Shown here piece by piece: positions 2,945 to 18,688 of a DNA stretch of 32,556 bases. Source of the DNA: Bacteroidales bacterium. GTDB lineage: Bacteria; Bacteroidota; Bacteroidia; Bacteroidales; GCA-2748055. A program made the translations under genes and the position numbers. Location of the stretch: NCBI GenBank assembly GCA_029931975.1, contig JAOZQY010000012.1:38231-70786 (forward strand), read 5' to 3'. Below the pieces are notes generated by a model. It saw only the letters and a program-made list of their open reading frames with translations, was not told the origin of the DNA and did no database searches. Numbering within the stretch: the stretch's first letter is position 1; every line of letters starts with the position of its first letter.

Positions 2945-3994
2945 ATGTACGATTCCATAATTCCAACAGCCGATACCATACCGGTTCACTGGCTATGGTT
3001 CCAGGTGCTGCTAATCCTCACCTTTTTCATACATATGATTCTGATGAACTTTCTCCTGGGAGGAAGCCTGCTTACTGTATGGGATTATTTTACCGGGAAA
3101 CTGGAGAAGAAGACCTCTGGCAGCATCCCCACATTGGTGGCCCTGACCGTTAATTTTGGGGTACCACCTCTTCTTTTTGTTCAGGTTCTGTACGGACACC
3201 TGTTTTATTCCAGCTCGGTGATGCTGGCGGTGCCCTGGATCCTGGTGGTTCCAATACTTATTCTGGCCTATTATGGAGCTTATATTTTTGTGAAACGTGC
3301 GGACAAGTTTCCTGTCCTGTCAAAGGCTGCACTGGTGTTTACTTCCCTGTCTCTGCTCTATATTGCCTTTGTATTTGTGAATAACAATACCCTGGCCATT
3401 CAACCCGATCGCTGGGGGATATATTTCAAAAATCCAGGCGGATGGAACCTAAACCTTGGGGAACCCACCCTCTGGCCCAGGTACCTGCACTTTCTGCTTT
3501 CTGCACTGGGCATCGGGGCCCTGGGAAGGGCCATTTTCTACCGCTTCTCAAAAATGAAGGATAAGGAGAAGGAGACTCAGATCAAAAGGAACCTGAAGAT
3601 TTTTGCCTGGATTACAGTGATCCAGTTCGCTGTAGGCACCTGGTTCTGGCTGACTATGCCAAAACCTGTCTGGCTAACTTTTATGGGCGGATCGTTTTTT
3701 GCAACAGCTATGATGGTGACTGGCTGGTTGTTGGCACTGTTGATTCTTCATAGTGCTTTTACGGGAAGATTAACGACGGCCATGATTCTGGGCGGATTGG
3801 AGGTACTGGTGATGGTGATTGTGCGGGACCTGGCAAGGCTAGCCTACCTGAAGGAGGTATTCCGGCCCTCGCAACTTGAGAATGTAAGTGAGTTCTCCCC
3901 ACTGGTAGTGTTTCTGCTGGTATTTGTGGTGGGACTTCTGGCAATCTATTACATGATTCGTCTAATAAGCAAATCTAAAACTCCCCAATCATGA
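2945..3994 (+). CDS. Diverged cytochrome bd subunit I-like membrane protein
   Basis: 349 residues, about nine membrane helices, no haem-c motif. The first helix reads FFIHMILMNFLLGGSLLTVWD, with H30 in the place of the CydA haem b595 ligand (E. coli pattern YHFLFVPLTLG). The fifth helix reads RYLHFLLSALGIGALG, with H182 matching the CydA haem b558 histidine (KFVHTVASGYVTGA). A VRDLARLAYLKEVF stretch near the end corresponds to the C-terminal E-GRQPW region of CydA. The paired glutamates of CydA helix 3 are not present (AVPWILVVPILIL instead). Its stop overlaps the next start (ATGA at 3991), so it almost certainly forms a complex with the haem-c fusion protein. No CydB, CydX or Q-loop is recognisable. 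I infer a quinol-reactive b-haem partner subunit; calling it an oxygen reductase is not supported. Confidence 0.7.
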   Translation: MYDSIIPTADTIPVHWLWFQVLLILTFFIHMILMNFLLGGSLLTVWDYFTGKLEKKTSGSIPTLVALTVNFGVPPLLFVQVLYGHLFYSSSVMLAVPWILVVPILILAYYGAYIFVKRADKFPVLSKAALVFTSLSLLYIAFVFVNNNTLAIQPDRWGIYFKNPGGWNLNLGEPTLWPRYLHFLLSALGIGALGRAIFYRFSKMKDKEKETQIKRNLKIFAWITVIQFAVGTWFWLTMPKPVWLTFMGGSFFATAMMVTGWLLALLILHSAFTGRLTTAMILGGLEVLVMVIVRDLARLAYLKEVFRPSQLENVSEFSPLVVFLLVFVVGLLAIYYMIRLISKSKTPQS

Positions 3995-6642
3995 ATTATC
4001 CGCTCTGGTTTCTTCCCCAACTGGGAGGAGGATTGTTAATCGCTATTATTGCGGTTCTGCATGTGGTTATTTCGCACCTGGCTGTGGGAGGAGGCCTCTT
4101 TCTCGTGCTCACAGAAAGAAAAGCGGTGTTAACAAAAAATAATGCATTGTTAGAATATGTAAGAAATCATACCTGGTTCTTTTTGCTACTGACAATGGTC
4201 TTTGGCGGAATAAGCGGCGTGGGAATCTGGTTTATTATTGCACTGGTTAACCCGGCGGCCACTTCTTCCCTGATACACACCTTTGTATTTGGATGGGCCA
4301 TTGAGTGGGTCTTCTTTCTTGGGGAGATCGTAGCCCTGCTGATTTATCACTACCGCTTTGGCAAGATGGATCCTAAGTCTCATATGACCCTGGGCTGGCT
4401 CTATTTTATTTTTGCCTGGCTCAGCCTTTTTGCTATCAATGGAATTCTGGGCTTTATGCTTACTCCGGGAAAATGGATCGAGACCGGGTCTTTCTGGCAT
4501 GGTTTTTTGAATCCCAGCTTCTTGCCGTCCCTGATCTTTCGGACCTGTATCTCCCTGATTTTTGCAGGGATATTCGGACTGGTCACAGGAGCCTGGCTGA
4601 AGGACAGTGAGATGCGGCGGACCGTCTTTCGGCTTTGTGCACGGTGGATGTATATTCCATTGGCCGTACTGGTGCTTACAGGGATTTACTATACCCGGGT
4701 TATCAGTGCCGAATCCTTTGCAAACCTTTTCCACTTTAACCGGGAGAGTACTCCCTTCATTATCCTGATTATTGTTAGTTCGATCCTGCTCTTCGGATTG
4801 GGCCTCTTTACCCTGGTGAAAAGCTCACAAAGGATTCAGAAGATCGGGGCCCTGGTGCTGGTGCTTATAAGTTTTGGCTGGATGGGGGGATTTGAATATA
4901 TGCGTGAGATTGCCCGCAAGCCCTATGTACTCTATGGTCATATGTACTCCACAGGTATCACTCCCGCACAGATGGAAGCTGTGAACAATGAGGGGTTTTT
5001 GCATATAGCCAAATGGTCAGAAGTGAAAGCACTAAATGATACGAACCTGCTGGAGGCCGGATCTGAGATCTTCAGGCTCCAATGTATGTCCTGTCACACG
5101 ATAAATGGCTACAATGGGGTGTTAAATAAATCGGACCAGCTCACCGAGCGTGGCCTGGAGGCCATGCTTACCGGAATGGGAAAGGTGAATTCCTATATGC
5201 CCCCCTTCGCGGGGACTTCCGATGAGAAGCGGGCCGTTGCAGCTTACATATACAGGGAACTGCAGGGTAAAACCACCCTTCCCGATGTGGCTTTTGAGCC
5301 CGATACACTTCTTCTTGATATACCACACTTCGATCCCGATTCGGACGACTATGTGCTGCTGGTATGGAACGATCTGGGGATGCATTGTATCTCCGACAAT
5401 GAGAAATATTTTTCCTTTCTTCCCCCGGCAAATACTTTTAATGCACAACTGTTTATAAGGGGGCCCCTCCCGAAGCTGGTTAGTAGCGGGATTACCATGG
5501 AGTATGCTGTGGAAGAGGGCTTTCAGCATCCAGAATATCACTCCATGTTCTGGGATTACGATGAAGCGATTTTTGGGGCCGATCTCCCCGAGGGAACCGG
5601 TCTTATGGGAAAGGGTGTGAATGGAAGTATGGAATCCCATGGAGCTGTATTTGCGGCTCATCTGATACCTGTGGTGCCCTATATGGATAACAAGACCTAC
5701 AATCCCTACCCGGTATTTACCATCACCGCGAAAGATAAATCCACCGGAGACGTTCTGGCCGTTACCAAAGCCGTAGCCCCAACCTCCACCGAGATGGGAT
5801 GCCGAAATTGCCATGAAGGGGGCTGGGCCCGGACCGACATTAGCGGAATGGCAGATCTGACTGCCATCAATATCCTGGCAGTACACGATCGTTTCAACGG
5901 AACCACTCTGCTTGAGGATGCAGAAAATGGTGAACCCAGGCTTTGCCAGTCCTGTCACGCCGATCCTGCATTGATGGCAACGGGGAAACCGGATGTTTTG
6001 AACTTCTCTTCGGCCATTCATGGCTTCCATGCCAACTACCTTTCGGGAATGGACCAGGAGGCCTGTAATATGTGTCACCCGAGTCGGGAGGAGGGCAATA
6101 CCAATTGTTTCCGGGGAAGGCATACCCAGGTCGGTGTTGGCTGTACCGAGTGCCATGGAGCCCTGGAGGACCATGCTCTTGGATTGCTGGCAAACCAGAC
6201 GGGGATTGAAGCTTCAACAAGACTATCCAGGGGACTGGAGCCTGTATATGCTTATTCAAAGGAAGAAATCAAACCCCGCATGCCCTGGCATATGGAACCA
6301 GATTGCCGCTCCTGTCATACTAATTTTAATATATTTGAAGATGGTTTTACCGGAACGGCCTTTAATAGTTGGGTGCCTGGTAAGGAGGCACTTTACCGCA
6401 ACAGGACCGATAATCACGGAGTCATGTGCATTGCTTGTCACGGGTCCACGCATGCGGTGTATGGTGCATATAACAAATACGGCCTCCAGCGTGATAACCA
6501 GCAGCCCCTTCAGTACCAGGGACTTGCCGGTACCATAGGAACCCACGGTCAGTGCATGGTATGCCATACAATTGAGATGAGCAGTAGTGGTCATCACCGT
6601 AACATGTTGAACAGAGATCCGCTTCCAATGTTAGTTGAATAG
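3991..6642 (+). CDS. CydA-like membrane protein fused to octahaem cytochrome c
   Basis: 883 residues in three parts. Residues 1-320: about eight membrane helices resembling cytochrome bd subunit I, with VLHVVISHLAVGGGLFLVLTE (H24 at the b595 ligand position), AIEWVFFLGE (E105, E112, like the CydA glutamates) and FEYMREIARKPYVL near the end. The b558 histidine position is RTCISLIF, so it is lost here. Residues 350-430: a mono-haem cytochrome c domain (C365-H369, with methionine YMPPFAG downstream as likely sixth ligand). Residues 440-600: a domain starting WNDLGMHC. Residues 604-859: seven more CXXCH motifs, at 604, 652, 692, 718, 772, 813 and 855. Haem c attachment requires this part to be outside the cytoplasm. 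Probable role: quinol oxidation with electron transfer to an external or periplasmic acceptor. TNCFRGRH at about 702 is not a haem motif. Overlaps the upstream gene by 4 bases. Confidence 0.8.
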   Translation: MNYPLWFLPQLGGGLLIAIIAVLHVVISHLAVGGGLFLVLTERKAVLTKNNALLEYVRNHTWFFLLLTMVFGGISGVGIWFIIALVNPAATSSLIHTFVFGWAIEWVFFLGEIVALLIYHYRFGKMDPKSHMTLGWLYFIFAWLSLFAINGILGFMLTPGKWIETGSFWHGFLNPSFLPSLIFRTCISLIFAGIFGLVTGAWLKDSEMRRTVFRLCARWMYIPLAVLVLTGIYYTRVISAESFANLFHFNRESTPFIILIIVSSILLFGLGLFTLVKSSQRIQKIGALVLVLISFGWMGGFEYMREIARKPYVLYGHMYSTGITPAQMEAVNNEGFLHIAKWSEVKALNDTNLLEAGSEIFRLQCMSCHTINGYNGVLNKSDQLTERGLEAMLTGMGKVNSYMPPFAGTSDEKRAVAAYIYRELQGKTTLPDVAFEPDTLLLDIPHFDPDSDDYVLLVWNDLGMHCISDNEKYFSFLPPANTFNAQLFIRGPLPKLVSSGITMEYAVEEGFQHPEYHSMFWDYDEAIFGADLPEGTGLMGKGVNGSMESHGAVFAAHLIPVVPYMDNKTYNPYPVFTITAKDKSTGDVLAVTKAVAPTSTEMGCRNCHEGGWARTDISGMADLTAINILAVHDRFNGTTLLEDAENGEPRLCQSCHADPALMATGKPDVLNFSSAIHGFHANYLSGMDQEACNMCHPSREEGNTNCFRGRHTQVGVGCTECHGALEDHALGLLANQTGIEASTRLSRGLEPVYAYSKEEIKPRMPWHMEPDCRSCHTNFNIFEDGFTGTAFNSWVPGKEALYRNRTDNHGVMCIACHGSTHAVYGAYNKYGLQRDNQQPLQYQGLAGTIGTHGQCMVCHTIEMSSSGHHRNMLNRDPLPMLVE

Positions 6643-6646
6643 AGAT

Positions 6647-7624
6647 ATGAAAGAAATTGCTAAATTCCAGATATTGATCTTATTAATTCTTGCAGGAGTG
6701 CTTCTTTCTGGCTGCAGGTCAAAAGAAGAGGTTTTTCCCATTGGTGAATTCCTTCCGGAAAGTGATACATTCTGGGAGGTGGTTCCCCGAGATGCAGTGA
6801 TGGAGCGCATCGGGATCAATTTTGAATTTACCGAGGGTCCTGCCTGGCACCCCAAGGGTTACCTGGTATTTTCAGATATCCCGGCCTCTACCATCTATCA
6901 GTGGACCGGAAAGAGGTTTGTGAGCTTTCGGGATTCCACCAATGAAGCTAATGGACTCCTGTTTAAGCAGGGGGGTGACCTGCTGGCCTGTGAGCATGCA
7001 TCCAGGAGCATCACCCGCTATTCGCCCGAAGGGAAATTAACCACCCTGGTGGATGCATACCAGGGCAAAAGGCTGAACAGTCCCAATGATCTTTGCAGAT
7101 CCGCTTTCGGGGCCATCTATTTTACGGATCCGCCGTGGGGACTGCCCGAACTGAACGACGATCCATCCAAGGAGTTGCCCTATAACGGGGTGTACAGATG
7201 GGAAGATGGAGAAACGATCCTTATCGACAGCACCCTTTCATGGCCCAATGGCATTGCCCTCTCGCCCGACGAACGATACCTCTATGTTGCAAATATGGAG
7301 GTCTTGCAGGAGAATGGAGTCGATAGCTATGATGTCTTCTGGATGAGATATACCCTGAATGAAAATGGTGCTGTGGTGGATAAAAAGGTATTTTTCAGGG
7401 CTCTAGATACTTCGCTTCCTGGCGGACCCGACGGGATGAAGGTGGACCAGCATGGAAATTTATTTGTAACCGGTCCGGGCGGCATCCTGGTACTGGACAG
7501 TGCAGGAACTCACCTGGGGACCATTACTGTGCCCATTCCGGCCACCAACCTGGCCTTTGGACCTAAGGAGAAGGAGATATTTGTGACCGCCAGATCCACC
7601 GTATACCGAATCACTCTGGAATAA
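6647..7624 (+). CDS. SMP-30/gluconolactonase-like lipoprotein
   Basis: 325 residues. The ATG at 6647 is 4 bases after the cytochrome stop and gives a lipoprotein signal (ILAGVLLSGC, lipidation at the C near residue 23). The rest is a six-bladed propeller of the SMP-30/gluconolactonase/LRE family: FEFTEGPAWHPKGYLVFSDIP (metal-binding glutamate), ANGLLF, LNSPNDLC followed by IYFTDPPWGLP, WPNGIALSPDERYLYVAN and PGGPDGMKVDQHGNLFVTG (metal-binding N and D residues). Family members hydrolyse sugar lactones with a divalent metal. The tight coupling to the haem protein is unusual: it may act on a lactone in the periplasm whose oxidation feeds the electron chain, or the coupling may be accidental. Confidence 0.85.
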   Translation: MKEIAKFQILILLILAGVLLSGCRSKEEVFPIGEFLPESDTFWEVVPRDAVMERIGINFEFTEGPAWHPKGYLVFSDIPASTIYQWTGKRFVSFRDSTNEANGLLFKQGGDLLACEHASRSITRYSPEGKLTTLVDAYQGKRLNSPNDLCRSAFGAIYFTDPPWGLPELNDDPSKELPYNGVYRWEDGETILIDSTLSWPNGIALSPDERYLYVANMEVLQENGVDSYDVFWMRYTLNENGAVVDKKVFFRALDTSLPGGPDGMKVDQHGNLFVTGPGGILVLDSAGTHLGTITVPIPATNLAFGPKEKEIFVTARSTVYRITLE

Positions 7625-7627
7625 CTG

Positions 7628-7738
7628 ATGAATAAACCTTCGAAGTATATTCTGGTCATATTCGGGGTCCCGGGCGATTTGACCAGGTGCTACCCTTGTA
7701 AGAACCTGGCCGATGACAGCCTTTATTGTGAATTGTGA
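7628..7738 (+). pseudogene. zwf: Relic of glucose-6-phosphate dehydrogenase N-terminus
   Basis: A 36-codon frame, starting at the ATG at 7628 and stopping TGA at 7736-7738, contains KYILVIFGVPGDLTR. This resembles the NADP-binding start of G6PD (typically ILVIFGASGDLTKRKL, often preceded by MNKP, which is also present here). After the match the sequence diverges and stops; the remaining roughly 460 residues are absent. The stop overlaps the kynureninase ATG. I read it as the stump of a deleted zwf gene; chance resemblance is possible because the match is short. Confidence 0.5.
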
Positions 7739-9030
7739 TGGAACGAAACATGGACAAGATCTATACAATTGAACACGCAAGGATGCTGGACCGGGAGGAT
7801 CCACTTGCATCCTATAGAGCCGAATTTGTAATCAAGGATTCTTCCATTGTATACCTGGATGGAAATTCACTGGGCCGCTTGCCTGAAAAAACGGCAAGCT
7901 ATATGGAGAGTGCCATCAGGAAGCAGTGGGGTGAAAGGTTGATCAGAAGCTGGAACGAGGGATGGTACAAGCAGTCGGCCCGCCTGGGTAAGAAGATTGC
8001 CCAGATCTTAGGGGCACATCCGGAGGAAGTAATTATCTCAGATTCCACCTCAGTAAATCTTTATAAGCTGGCCTATGGAGCCCTGAAGGCCAAAGAGGGG
8101 AGGGCGGATATCATCTCTGACGATATGAATTTCCCCTCCGATCTCTATATAATGCAGGGCCTGGTCAGACAGTTTGGGGGTCAGCATGCGCTTAGACTCT
8201 TGAAATCGCCCGACGGGATCTCCTCGGATTTGACCGAACTGGTGAGGATGGTCAATCATAATACGGCCCTTGTATCCCTATCTCATGTGGCCTATAAGAG
8301 TTCCTATTTGTACGATATGGAGCGGGTAACTGAGCTGGCCCATATGCACGATGCCCTTATTTTGTGGGATCTGAGCCATTCGGTAGGAGTAGTCCCGGTG
8401 AGTCTGAACAGGGCCAATGTGGATCTGGCTGTGGGATGTACGTATAAATATCTGAATGGGGGACCAGGATCGCCTGCCTTTCTTTATGTGAAGAAGGAAC
8501 TTCAGGAGCGAATGGAGAATCCCATACAGGGCTGGTTTGGAGAGCAGAACCCCTTTGATTTTAATCTGCATTACAGGGAGTCAGAGGGGATCCGTAAATT
8601 CTTGACCGGAACACCGCCCGTAATTTCCATATCGGGACTGGAACCTGCCCTGGATATGATCCTGAAGGCAGGTATCGGATCTATACGGCAAAAGAGTGTG
8701 GCGCAGGGCGATTACCTGCTCTCCCTGGTACAGGAGTGCCTGCCGGGACAAGGATTCAGGATTGGTTCGCCCGAGTTTTTCGAAAAGAGAGGGTCGCATA
8801 TCTCTCTGAAACATGCGGAGGGCTATCGCATATGCAAGGCATTGATCGATCCGGAAATAGGAAGGTGCGTGGTGATTCCTGATTTCCGTGAACCCAATAA
8901 TATCCGACTGGGAATCAGTCCTTTGTATACAAGCTATGAAGATATCTTTTCTGCCATGGAAAAACTGAAGCTTATCATAGAAGAAAAACTCTACGAACAC
9001 TATCCCGGCACGAGGGACCAGGTGACCTAG
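7738..9030 (+). CDS. kynU: Kynureninase
   Basis: 430 residues. PLP-dependent cytoplasmic enzyme that cleaves L-kynurenine to anthranilate and L-alanine (or 3-hydroxykynurenine to 3-hydroxyanthranilate) in tryptophan breakdown. Motifs in order: VYLDGNSLGRLP near the N-terminus, SWNEGWYK, VIISDSTSVNLYKL, DDMNFPSDLYI, LILWDLSHSVGVVP (PLP-binding aspartate), GCTYKYLNGGPGSPAF with the PLP lysine at about K237, FLTGTPPV, and RLGISPLYTSYEDI near the end. Length matches the family. Start: ATG at 7738 overlaps the stop of the G6PD relic; ATG at 7750 (MDKIYT) is also possible. No tryptophan dioxygenase, kynurenine monooxygenase or formamidase is in the window, so the rest of the pathway must lie elsewhere. 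Confidence 0.92.
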   Translation: MERNMDKIYTIEHARMLDREDPLASYRAEFVIKDSSIVYLDGNSLGRLPEKTASYMESAIRKQWGERLIRSWNEGWYKQSARLGKKIAQILGAHPEEVIISDSTSVNLYKLAYGALKAKEGRADIISDDMNFPSDLYIMQGLVRQFGGQHALRLLKSPDGISSDLTELVRMVNHNTALVSLSHVAYKSSYLYDMERVTELAHMHDALILWDLSHSVGVVPVSLNRANVDLAVGCTYKYLNGGPGSPAFLYVKKELQERMENPIQGWFGEQNPFDFNLHYRESEGIRKFLTGTPPVISISGLEPALDMILKAGIGSIRQKSVAQGDYLLSLVQECLPGQGFRIGSPEFFEKRGSHISLKHAEGYRICKALIDPEIGRCVVIPDFREPNNIRLGISPLYTSYEDIFSAMEKLKLIIEEKLYEHYPGTRDQVT

Positions 9031-16825: not shown

Positions 16826-18688
16826 TTACTGGAGTTTTAAAATCAAAGACTGAAGTGGTTTGAGGTCGACTCTTGTTTCTGCTTTCTCTCCGGAGAGGAT
16901 AAGTTTTAGGGTGGCGTCTGAGAGCTGGTCCTCCAGGGCATATTCACCCTCCTGGAGACTCCAGGCCTGGATGACTTCCACCGGAAGGCGAAGCTCAAAT
17001 CCAAAGCTGTTTTTTGCGTCAAAATTGCTAATTATAATCAGGCGATCCTCTCCTTTCCAGCGCACATAAGAGAAAATCCGGTCGTTGTACCACTGGGTAT
17101 GCTCCCGGTTGTAGCTGTGAATTTCCCTGTAATTGCCGGTGAGGGCCTTGCTGTTTTTGGTGAAATTCAGCAGGGTGGAGTAAAATGAATTCAGTTCTTT
17201 CTCTTCATCTGAAAGACCAGCTCCGTCAAACTTTCCCCCATTCATCCAGTGCTGGTGGTGGGGGACACCGATGTAATCATAAATGGAGGTGCGGGAGGGA
17301 CCGCCAAATCCGGGCTCTTCTGCCCCGGGTTCGCCAACATTCTGACCAAAATAAAGCATGGTGGGAGAGCTGCCAATGGTGGAAGATACGACCATGGCCG
17401 GCATTCCTTTGCGGGCATCTCCTGCAAAGCCCGGACTGGCAATTCGCTGTTCATCATGATTCTCGAGGAAATGCAGCATATGATGCTCAATATCGCCTAG
17501 CTCATTTTGAATAGTCACAATGGCATCGGTGCTGCCATGCCCCTGCATGATGGCTTTCAGGCTATCGTAGAGCTGTACCTTATCATATAGGTAGTCCATT
17601 TTACCCCTGGAGATATAGTCCCTGTAGATATGGGGCTGGTAGATCTCTGCCAGGAGGAAGGCATCGGGTTTTGCCATCTTGATAGCAGAGTTCATATAAC
17701 TCCAGAACTCCACCGGAACCATCTCGGCCATATCATAGCGAAATCCATCCACTCCCTTCTCCAGCCAGTAAAGGGCAATGTCTTTGTACTTTTTCCAGGA
17801 GTCAGGCACCTGCTTATCCTGCCAGAAGGTATAATGGGCCTGGCAGGATTCATTTTCATAGCCGGCGGGCAGGGCATCAAAATCATGAAAGCCATCCGGA
17901 TCCACACCGAAATTGATCTTGACCGCTTCGTACCAGTCATTCATATCGGGTTGGGGACTTCTCGAACCGTTACCGGTCCATTTGGCCGGATCTTCCTTGA
18001 AGTGGCCATCGGCCCCGGGGCGATTCTCACCTCCCAGTACCTGGTAGCCATCCCTCCATTCAGGAACCCGGAAGGGCTGTCCGGGTATATAGTAGAAATT
18101 GTTATCCTTCAGGTATTCCCGGGAACGGTCATCGCTTGCTCCAAAATCCACCACCCCTTCGGGATTGCTTACCGAATGATAGACCCGTGCCACATGGTTG
18201 GGAACTATGTCGATCACCACCTTCATGCCGTGCTGGTGGGTACGTTCGATCAATGCCTGGAACTCCTCCAATCGCCTTGCCGGATCGACGGCCAGGTCGG
18301 GATTCACATTGTAGTAATCTTTCACCGAATAGGGCGAACCGGCCCTGCCTTTTACCACATCGGGATCATCGCCCGGTAAACCATATGCACTGTAATCGGT
18401 GACCATGGCATGGTGGAGAACTCCCGTATACCAGATATGGGTGATTCCCAGATCTTTGATGGCTTCCAGTGCCTCATCGCTGAAATCCTTGAATTTGCCC
18501 ACCCCGTTTTCCTTCAGCGTTCCCCAGGGTATATTATTCGTGGAAGTATTGCCGAACAGACGGGTAAATACCTGGTATACATTGATTTTCATCTCTTCTG
18601 TTTCAGGTTCTGTTTTATGATCGCTTTGTGTGCTACATCCTGTCAGCATTGCTGCCAGGGCCAGCCCTGCTATAATGACACGCTTCAT
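16826..18688 (-). CDS. GH13 alpha-amylase family lipoprotein
   Basis: 620 residues. Lipoprotein signal MKRVIIAGLALAAMLTGC. Four GH13 regions are present: VVIDIVPNH (I), VDGFRYDMAE with nucleophile D319 (II), FLLAEIY with acid/base E348 (III) and FLENHDEQR with D412 (IV). Between regions I and II there is a long insert (roughly residues 170-290) with repeated aromatic/glycine turns, larger than in simple alpha-amylases. The C-terminal beta domain ends at LKLQ. Acts on alpha-glucans or alpha-linked oligosaccharides such as maltodextrin; specificity is not visible. It is coupled by a 4-base ATGA overlap to the small membrane protein upstream and followed closely by a sulfatase. Confidence 0.88.
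   Translation of the reverse strand: MKRVIIAGLALAAMLTGCSTQSDHKTEPETEEMKINVYQVFTRLFGNTSTNNIPWGTLKENGVGKFKDFSDEALEAIKDLGITHIWYTGVLHHAMVTDYSAYGLPGDDPDVVKGRAGSPYSVKDYYNVNPDLAVDPARRLEEFQALIERTHQHGMKVVIDIVPNHVARVYHSVSNPEGVVDFGASDDRSREYLKDNNFYYIPGQPFRVPEWRDGYQVLGGENRPGADGHFKEDPAKWTGNGSRSPQPDMNDWYEAVKINFGVDPDGFHDFDALPAGYENESCQAHYTFWQDKQVPDSWKKYKDIALYWLEKGVDGFRYDMAEMVPVEFWSYMNSAIKMAKPDAFLLAEIYQPHIYRDYISRGKMDYLYDKVQLYDSLKAIMQGHGSTDAIVTIQNELGDIEHHMLHFLENHDEQRIASPGFAGDARKGMPAMVVSSTIGSSPTMLYFGQNVGEPGAEEPGFGGPSRTSIYDYIGVPHHQHWMNGGKFDGAGLSDEEKELNSFYSTLLNFTKNSKALTGNYREIHSYNREHTQWYNDRIFSYVRWKGEDRLIIISNFDAKNSFGFELRLPVEVIQAWSLQEGEYALEDQLSDATLKLILSGEKAETRVDLKPLQSLILKLQ

Follow-up and report, generated by a model that had tools for sequence, protein, structure and literature searches.

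Genes A and B form a tandem pair in a 32,556-nucleotide stretch of DNA from a Bacteroidales bacterium (contig JAOZQY010000012.1 of assembly GCA_029931975.1; the whole stretch is called the window here). We propose, with a probability of about 0.6, that the two proteins are the subunits of an oxygen reductase that belongs to the cytochrome bd superfamily and is fed by cytochrome c, a reading drawn from sequence comparisons and structural models. Canonical cytochrome bd is fed by quinol, and what is known of relatives for which cytochrome c has been proposed as donor comes mostly from their sequences. The pair looks like a conserved variant of the known bd family, in which eight haems c are fused to a CydA-like protein.

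In the proposed mechanism, B would house the di-haem oxygen site, and A would bind a b558-type low-spin haem and take the place of CydB. The electrons would be supplied on the periplasmic side (by small c3/c7-type cytochromes or, through these, by periplasmic dehydrogenases), run along seven haems to a His/Met haem c domain behind helix 8 and end at the di-haem site, bypassing the quinone pool. The likely job in the mostly anaerobic hosts would be the removal of O2 alongside canonical CydAB, perhaps with some energy conservation; that is, the role is probably one of protecting anaerobes from oxygen. The anatomy and its conservation, the topology signals, the pattern of ligands, the absence from B of the Q-loop and the b558 ligand and a statistical link to canonical oxidase genes are what the data show directly; the O2 substrate, the direction of electron flow, the identity of the donor, the haem types and the formation of an A-B complex are what we infer. 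Among models that make use of the conserved features, a cytochrome-c-fed bd-type oxygen reductase with a covalent donor wire is the simplest.

The pair is laid out as follows.

2945..3994, + strand: gene A, open reading frame (ORF) of 349 amino acids (aa), CydA-like membrane subunit with no haem c
3991..6642, + strand: gene B, ORF of 883 aa, CydA-like/octahaem fusion
3991..3994, + strand: ATGA overlap of the A stop and the B start, read from the sequence at the junction

An initial annotation of the window had described two tandem genes overlapping by ATGA. Both ORFs lie exactly where it placed them, and the junction is ATGA. The eight CXXCH motifs that it saw in one polypeptide were all counted in B and, as it had remarked, no CydB adjoins the pair: the partner of B is A. 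The sole canonical CydA-CydB of the genome lies on a separate contig from A-B, and a genome search found no haem-copper oxidase. Searched against this genome, neither the A profile nor the C-terminal part of B finds any place other than the A-B locus.

The arrangement is widely conserved. One scan of genome contigs yielded 293 relatives of B, the best 80 of which were fetched as octahaem loci. This survey, one of the checks suggested by the initial annotation, places A directly before B in 76 of the 80; in the remaining four, B starts 3-230 nucleotides (nt) from a contig end, i.e. the locus is cut off upstream. An overlap of exactly 4 nt is seen in 46 of the 76, and the two genes lie within 12 nt in 65; the longer apparent overlaps of the other 11 arise from a mechanical ORF start of B placed upstream. 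Eight CXXCH motifs are found in 71 of the 73 B frames of at least 800 aa, the exceptions being L067 (three motifs, cut at a contig end) and L076 (seven, broken frames). Identity to the window copy ranges from 40 to 86% over 54 aligned B. Judging by their titles, the hosts include Bacteroidota, Calditrichota, KSB1, Ignavibacteria, Thermodesulfovibrio and other Nitrospirota, Desulfobacterota, Verrucomicrobia, Gemmatimonadales and Spirochaetes. Named isolates with the pair are Thermodesulfobacterium hveragerdense, Thermodesulfobacterium thermophilum, Desulfogranum japonicum, Draconibacterium orientale and Thermodesulfovibrio sp. N1.

The evidence for an oxygen reductase begins with the membrane domain of B, the features of which are listed here with their conservation among aligned B.

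3991..4917, + strand: eight-helix CydA-like domain, B residues 1-309 (Pfam, profile and model)
4060-4062, + strand: H24, oxygen-site residue, kept in 71/74
4303-4305, + strand: E105, oxygen-site residue, kept in 73/74
4324-4326, + strand: E112, oxygen-site residue, kept in 73/74
4906-4908, + strand: E306, kept in 74/74, paired with the oxygen site by a weak alignment
4915-4917, + strand: R309, kept in 74/74, paired with the oxygen site by a weak alignment

Profile searches against the cytochrome bd superfamily, also suggested by the initial annotation, matched B to CydA. In Pfam, Cyt_bd_oxida_I (PF01654) covers residues 17-233 (expectation value (E) 9.6e-8; 31.4 bits against a cut-off of 26.2), and the same family is matched by 36 of the 55 aligned B at E ≤0.01. 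The B profile finds the CydA of Geobacillus, 5doq_A, at E 3.5e-6; a profile comparison with nine canonical CydA aligns residues 17-182 at E 1.5e-4 and 51% probability. The AlphaFold model of B has eight helices (predicted local distance difference test (pLDDT) 88.3), and Foldseek places it closest to bd oxidases (8b4o_A, E 5.8e-7; the best 20 matches are all bd subunits).

Three separate alignments with canonical CydA put the His of the first transmembrane helix (TM1) at H24 and the Glu residues of TM3 at E105 and E112, positions that presumably serve the d/b595 site. An oxygen-reductase haem environment, which the initial annotation had named as speaking against its own proposal (a quinol dehydrogenase, discussed below), is largely present at the residue level, with the five residues listed above conserved in 71-74 of 74 B, although E306 and R309 align with canonical residues only in a weak segment. 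Together with E306 and R309, P311 is invariant or near-invariant across B. All five listed residues are kept in the 15 relatives checked from two mono-haem classes (II and III, introduced below), and one outlier, L103, is without E112. The marks of quinol use are gone from B. At the position of the b558 His, B has F183 (Phe in 71/74), followed by R184 (74/74), and where a Q-loop would be expected, between TM6 and TM7, the model shows a 13-residue linker (residues 238-250). B has neither the Q-loop nor the b558 His that mark the CydA of canonical quinol-oxidising bd enzymes (qOR).

The haem part of B follows the membrane domain and can be divided into three.

5050..5262, + strand: Cytochrome_CBB3-type monohaem c domain, B residues 354-424, with C365-C368-H369 and M403
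5308..5790, + strand: beta-rich domain with an NDLGMHC motif, B residues 440-600, from the model; also present in stand-alone multihaem cytochromes
5791..6600, + strand: seven-haem chain, B residues 601-870, with seven CXXCH and eight conserved extra His

The CXXCH motifs start at residues 365, 604, 652, 692, 718, 772, 813 and 855. In 2000 shuffles of B, 1965 had no CXXCH and 35 had one, never more. The ligand pair of the monohaem domain, which comes after helix 8, is present in 74 of 74 B (H369/M403), and the Cys of NDLGMHC is conserved in just 45 of 74. Each of the extra His of the seven-haem chain (632, 677, 680, 711, 728, 821, 868 and 869) is kept in 71-74 of 74. Because the seven CXXCH are accompanied by eight conserved His, the simplest reading is that the seven haems would act as a bis-His wire. 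For the haem part of B, Foldseek returned no credible match in the PDB. The Lys/Arg counts of B are 3, 3, 3 and 3 in loops 1, 3, 5 and 7, compared with 0, 0, 1 and 2 in loops 0, 2, 4 and 6, with 3 after helix 8. This mostly N-out pattern suggests that the N-terminus and the haem domains are probably periplasmic; with the eight helices of the model, it makes the periplasmic haem chain of the initial annotation probable.

Subunit A is more diverged. Its conserved positions are the following.

3032-3034, + strand: codon of H30, kept in 75/75
3488-3490, + strand: codon of H182, kept in 74/75, pairs in alignment with the CydA ligand of haem b558
3812-3814, + strand: codon of M290, kept in 75/75

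Residues Q80, R179, R294 and R298 are conserved as well (73-75 of 75 across the conserved set of A). The sequence has zero cysteines, and the AlphaFold model shows nine long helices (pLDDT 90.5). The initial annotation had called both proteins CydA-like. For B this holds by direct match; for A it holds by way of the B profile (95.4% probability, E 1.8e-8 between the two family profiles) and of the bd-oxidase fold of its model, but not by direct similarity to canonical CydA, which was not significant with one sequence or with nine (2.4% probability). The TM-scores for A do not separate the CydA fold from the CydB fold. A Pfam scan of A matched no family (Cyt_bd_oxida_I is found in only 1 of 61 aligned A), and a PDB sequence search with A returned nothing credible. 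The possibility that A is a CydB was rejected, as PF02322 matches none of the 61 A and the genome's own CydB was not matched. The nine-CydA alignment, itself not significant overall, also pairs H182 with the b558 ligand. A keeps only the TM1 His (H30) of the active-site pair, the TM3 glutamates not being kept, and it has no Q-loop. From these residues we would place the oxygen site in B and the predicted low-spin haem in A.

Relatives with fewer haems indicate the core of this family. The B membrane profile, run on a Desulfobacterota sample of 247 genomes, matched 46. A close class comprises 14 genomes (E <1e-130; frames of 855-915 aa in 11, shorter in three), class II 23 genomes, class III eight matches (one in a genome also bearing the close class) and the outliers two genomes. 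Twenty regions were fetched. In the nine class II regions, a mono-haem B (438-456 aa) is followed by A. In the six class III regions (L097-L102), a TsdA/SoxA-like dihaem gene precedes a mono-haem B and an A with two haems c; the TsdA-like proteins were identified by Pfam in L097 and L101 only, and the rest matched L097 by phmmer. As an aside, this gene run is possibly a thiosulfate- or tetrathionate-linked bd-family enzyme. L106 and L107 have a tri-haem B, L105 a mono-haem form near the window type and L103 a mono-haem B with A not detected; L104 gave no match. B therefore carries one, three or eight haems c across its relatives. The core is thus a pair of a CydA-like protein bearing one haem c and the CydA-like A, with the octahaem chain as one elaboration. 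In a tree rooted at midpoint and subject to a long-branch warning (L103 foremost), the octahaem, tri-haem and mono-haem L105 forms make one clade (98/96), apart from the mono-haem classes II and III.

The seven-haem module also leads a life of its own. It is matched at E ≤1e-10 in 25 of the 247 genomes, 11 of which are octahaem genomes and 14 of which have it only in other proteins. Twelve regions with such stand-alone cytochromes were fetched (407-698 aa, six to ten CXXCH), and some have signal- or lipoprotein-like starts by eye. In one (L108, 1238-6124, - strand), a 10-haem relative of the module adjoins a molybdopterin oxidoreductase with a twin-arginine translocation (TAT) signal, which suggests a periplasmic dehydrogenase partner for the haem module.

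Gene neighbourhoods and host genomes point towards oxygen. The flanks of four of the 80 unselected octahaem loci (L026, L068, L071 and L073) contain canonical cydAB, compared with 0.25 expected from 882 kb of flank and an assumed one cydAB per 3.5 Mb. L068, L071 and L073 share an Rrf2-type regulator situated between A-B and a divergent cydAB. Among loci selected for co-location, L125 carries on one strand genes for desulfoferrodoxin, CydA, CydB, a trihaem c7, an FprA-type flavodiiron protein, A and octahaem B, in an island that also holds flavodoxin and FMN reductase; L122 reads Rrf2-CydA-CydB-B-A, L123 reads CydA-CydB-B-A and L124 also has cydAB. Peroxiredoxin, Fur-family, Crp-family or FprA neighbours occur in four of the nine class II regions of Desulfobacterota (L088, L089, L092 and L094), and the outlier L103 has FprA and rubrerythrin nearby. 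In Nitrospirota, class II loci have ferritin (L129), hemerythrin (L130), COX1 with a UbiA-family gene (L132), a copper-ATPase-like gene (L127 and L128, by similarity to L124) or an Rrf2-type gene only (L131). At the genome level, and by statistics that ignore kinship and completeness (a caution that counts with those gathered below), CydB occurs in 13 of the 14 close-class genomes of the Desulfobacterota sample against 83 of 233 others (p 2.6e-5), in 8 of 8 class III genomes against 88 of 239 (p 4e-4) and in 10 of 12 octahaem genomes of Nitrospirota against 114 of 283 (p 0.005).

Several observations weigh against reading the pair as an oxygen reductase. Three of the four cydAB loci (L068, L071 and L073) are close kin, leaving about two independent cases (P(≥2) 0.027). 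The fetched flanks of the other 76 octahaem loci have no cydAB, and in these the oxygen-defence queries matched only in L053 (peroxiredoxin) and L078 (desulfoferrodoxin), so that 74 of the 80 match neither. The controls, in which 0 of 12 stand-alone cytochrome regions match any query, are few, small and from one phylum. The window itself has no oxygen-related neighbour among the proteins scanned (ORFs up to 21371). In the class II regions of Desulfobacterota, the neighbours searched for were not found in five of nine, L093 has a molybdopterin oxidoreductase and in L095 a multihaem cytochrome adjoins the pair. Class II also shows no CydB enrichment (9/23 against 87/224). Of 27 module genomes tested, 24 have CydB, 12 have a haem-copper oxidase (COX1) and two (G018 and G025) have neither; hosts with the pair as their one oxygen reductase are thus rare, and a role as sole oxidase was rejected on these counts. 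At the residue level, a single weak second segment (7.5 bits, i-Evalue 7.6) matched E306 and R309 to the Glu and Arg in the E-x-GRQPW motif, and two further alignments did not recover the pairing.

The initial annotation had favoured a quinol dehydrogenase with outward electron flow, a reading that we now regard as unlikely. Here, quinol would be oxidised by A at its b558-type haem, and the haems of B would carry electrons out to a periplasmic or surface acceptor in anaerobic or extracellular respiration, as in CbcL, ImcH and CbcBA. The retention in A of H182, M290 and several polar residues would suit this, as would the many hosts that are anaerobes (judged by name) and the occurrence of the C-terminal module in stand-alone cytochromes, some with lipoprotein-like starts. 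Moreover, an OTR-like octahaem cytochrome follows the tri-haem relative in L106 and TsdA-like cytochromes precede class III, which would also fit delivery to a periplasmic reductase and is a further point against oxygen reduction by B. Yet neither subunit has a Q-loop, and such a dehydrogenase would leave unexplained the O2-site residues kept in B, the above-expectation oxidase and oxygen-defence neighbours and the CydB enrichment. The neighbourhood clusters showed no conspicuous porin-cytochrome conduit, although no search aimed at conduits was made. No NapC/NrfH, DUF4405 or NrfD-type membrane domain was over the cut-off in A or B of the window (the NrfH model scored 14 bits against 134.2), and PF03264 is listed in 1 of 55 B relatives (E 0.0008). 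Because B keeps the O2-site residues, has lost both the Q-loop and the b558 ligand and stands in an oxygen-linked context, outward quinol oxidation is not the best reading.

There is a slim chance that the di-haem site uses electrons from the haem chain to reduce a small molecule other than O2 (NO, peroxide, nitrite or a sulfur compound). Reactions with NO and peroxide are known from canonical bd as well, and the Rrf2-type regulators, which include NO sensors in other bacteria, lie near the pair in several class II loci as well as in L068, L071 and L073. On the other hand, the O2-site residues are unchanged, with no special ligand, and such neighbours as were identified are genes linked to O2, superoxide, peroxide or oxidases, denitrification genes not having been specifically searched. 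A reading in which the seven-haem domain does the catalysis, as a multihaem reductase that the membrane part merely feeds, is very improbable. Stand-alone relatives of the domain do exist, but its eight conserved extra His suffice for bis-His ligation at all seven haems, and it has no CXXCK and no NrfA or HAO family match. A more ambitious version of the proposed cytochrome-c-fed oxygen reductase, which we hold only tentatively, would make A-B a self-contained O2-reducing cathode across anaerobic phyla, with an eight-haem wire, periplasmic or even extracellular or syntrophic donors and no quinone step.

How does the pair relate to known systems? Murali, Gennis and Hemp reportedly described, in 2021, a bd-type oxygen reductase superfamily that includes an OR-C family. 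OR-C, taken as the haem-c-bearing branch of the bd relatives, resembles A-B in a CydA-like catalytic subunit with a di-haem site, a fused cytochrome c domain and no quinol site. The window type differs by its eight haems c per chain and by a seven-haem module that is also found in separate cytochromes; our tree relates only the octahaem, tri-haem and mono-haem forms. Compared with canonical CydAB (e.g. 5doq, 6rko and 8b4o), the fold and the TM1 and TM3 residues of the di-haem site are shared, whereas A-B has no Q-loop, no b558 ligand in B and no CydB, and has haems c added.

Published accounts divide the bd superfamily into branches, some without a quinol site (PMC13189123, PMC10839748, PMC12342949, PMC3578206). 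In particular, the OR-N CydAA' of Nitrospinota and Nitrospira (NIDE0901-like) is proposed to have two CydA-like subunits, no quinol site and cytochrome c as donor (PMC10839748, PMC12342949, PMC3578206). A-B is alike in all three respects, but the accessible descriptions of OR-N include no fused octahaem part. In Nitrospirota, frames that are mostly 500-630 aa long reach just E ~1e-12 to 1e-20 against the B membrane profile, and these would be OR-N. Cable bacteria, several of which are reported to be without a complete terminal oxidase (PMC10030654, PMC13047784, PMC12093952), have CydAh, a CydA relative without CydB (PMC13047784, PMC10030654, PMC12093952); its cytochrome c domain is described as facing the periplasm, and it may take part in reducing O2 (PMC13047784). 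CydAh is like A-B, by description, in being a CydA relative without CydB. The quinol dehydrogenases CbcL, ImcH and CbcBA (PMC8235581, PMC10553843) are, like B, inner-membrane cytochromes with haem c; they differ in membrane fold from A and B, and no quinol-dehydrogenase family was over the cut-off in the window pair. A paper on the bd oxidase of Melioribacter roseus was considered as an earlier description and rejected, as it terms MROS_0842-0843 a quinol oxidase with a short Q-loop. The accessible literature yielded no description of an octahaem CydA fusion; most subscription papers fall outside this coverage, so absence is unproven.

A-B offers a compact, conserved bd relative with its donor wire fused on, available in named isolates. 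It opens to test how anaerobes may use periplasmic electrons (e.g. from hydrogenase, formate dehydrogenase or c3) for oxygen removal, and what the CydA homologues of cable bacteria may do. If the more ambitious version is right, an O2 cathode with a built-in wire would work on a principle that cable bacteria, too, would have to use at their oxic end.

Some further features of the neighbourhoods deserve mention. In L106, one gene run (3510-7935) encodes A together with the tri-haem CydA-like protein and an octahaem cytochrome of PF11783, which we take to be the OTR-like one. L026 has a second, truncated CydA-like gene (17887-18645) near cydAB and the octahaem pair. The neighbours scanned in the window are an ordinary Bacteroidota set (kinases, sulfatase, glycosidases and the PrsW protease); upstream of the pair, 1545-2872 encodes a protein of no clear family and the PrsW-type intramembrane protease. 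Clustering of the ORFs in the 80 loci revealed small groups only and no common third gene. In L018, L019, L021, L022, L027, L061, L078 and L079, the gene immediately preceding A (~1.1 kb upstream of B) codes for a small membrane protein that by eye looks PsiE-like. Downstream of B, genes that by eye are FeoA-like and FeoB-like occur in eight loci each, in overlapping sets drawn from L037-L040, L045, L064, L066, L076 and L077.

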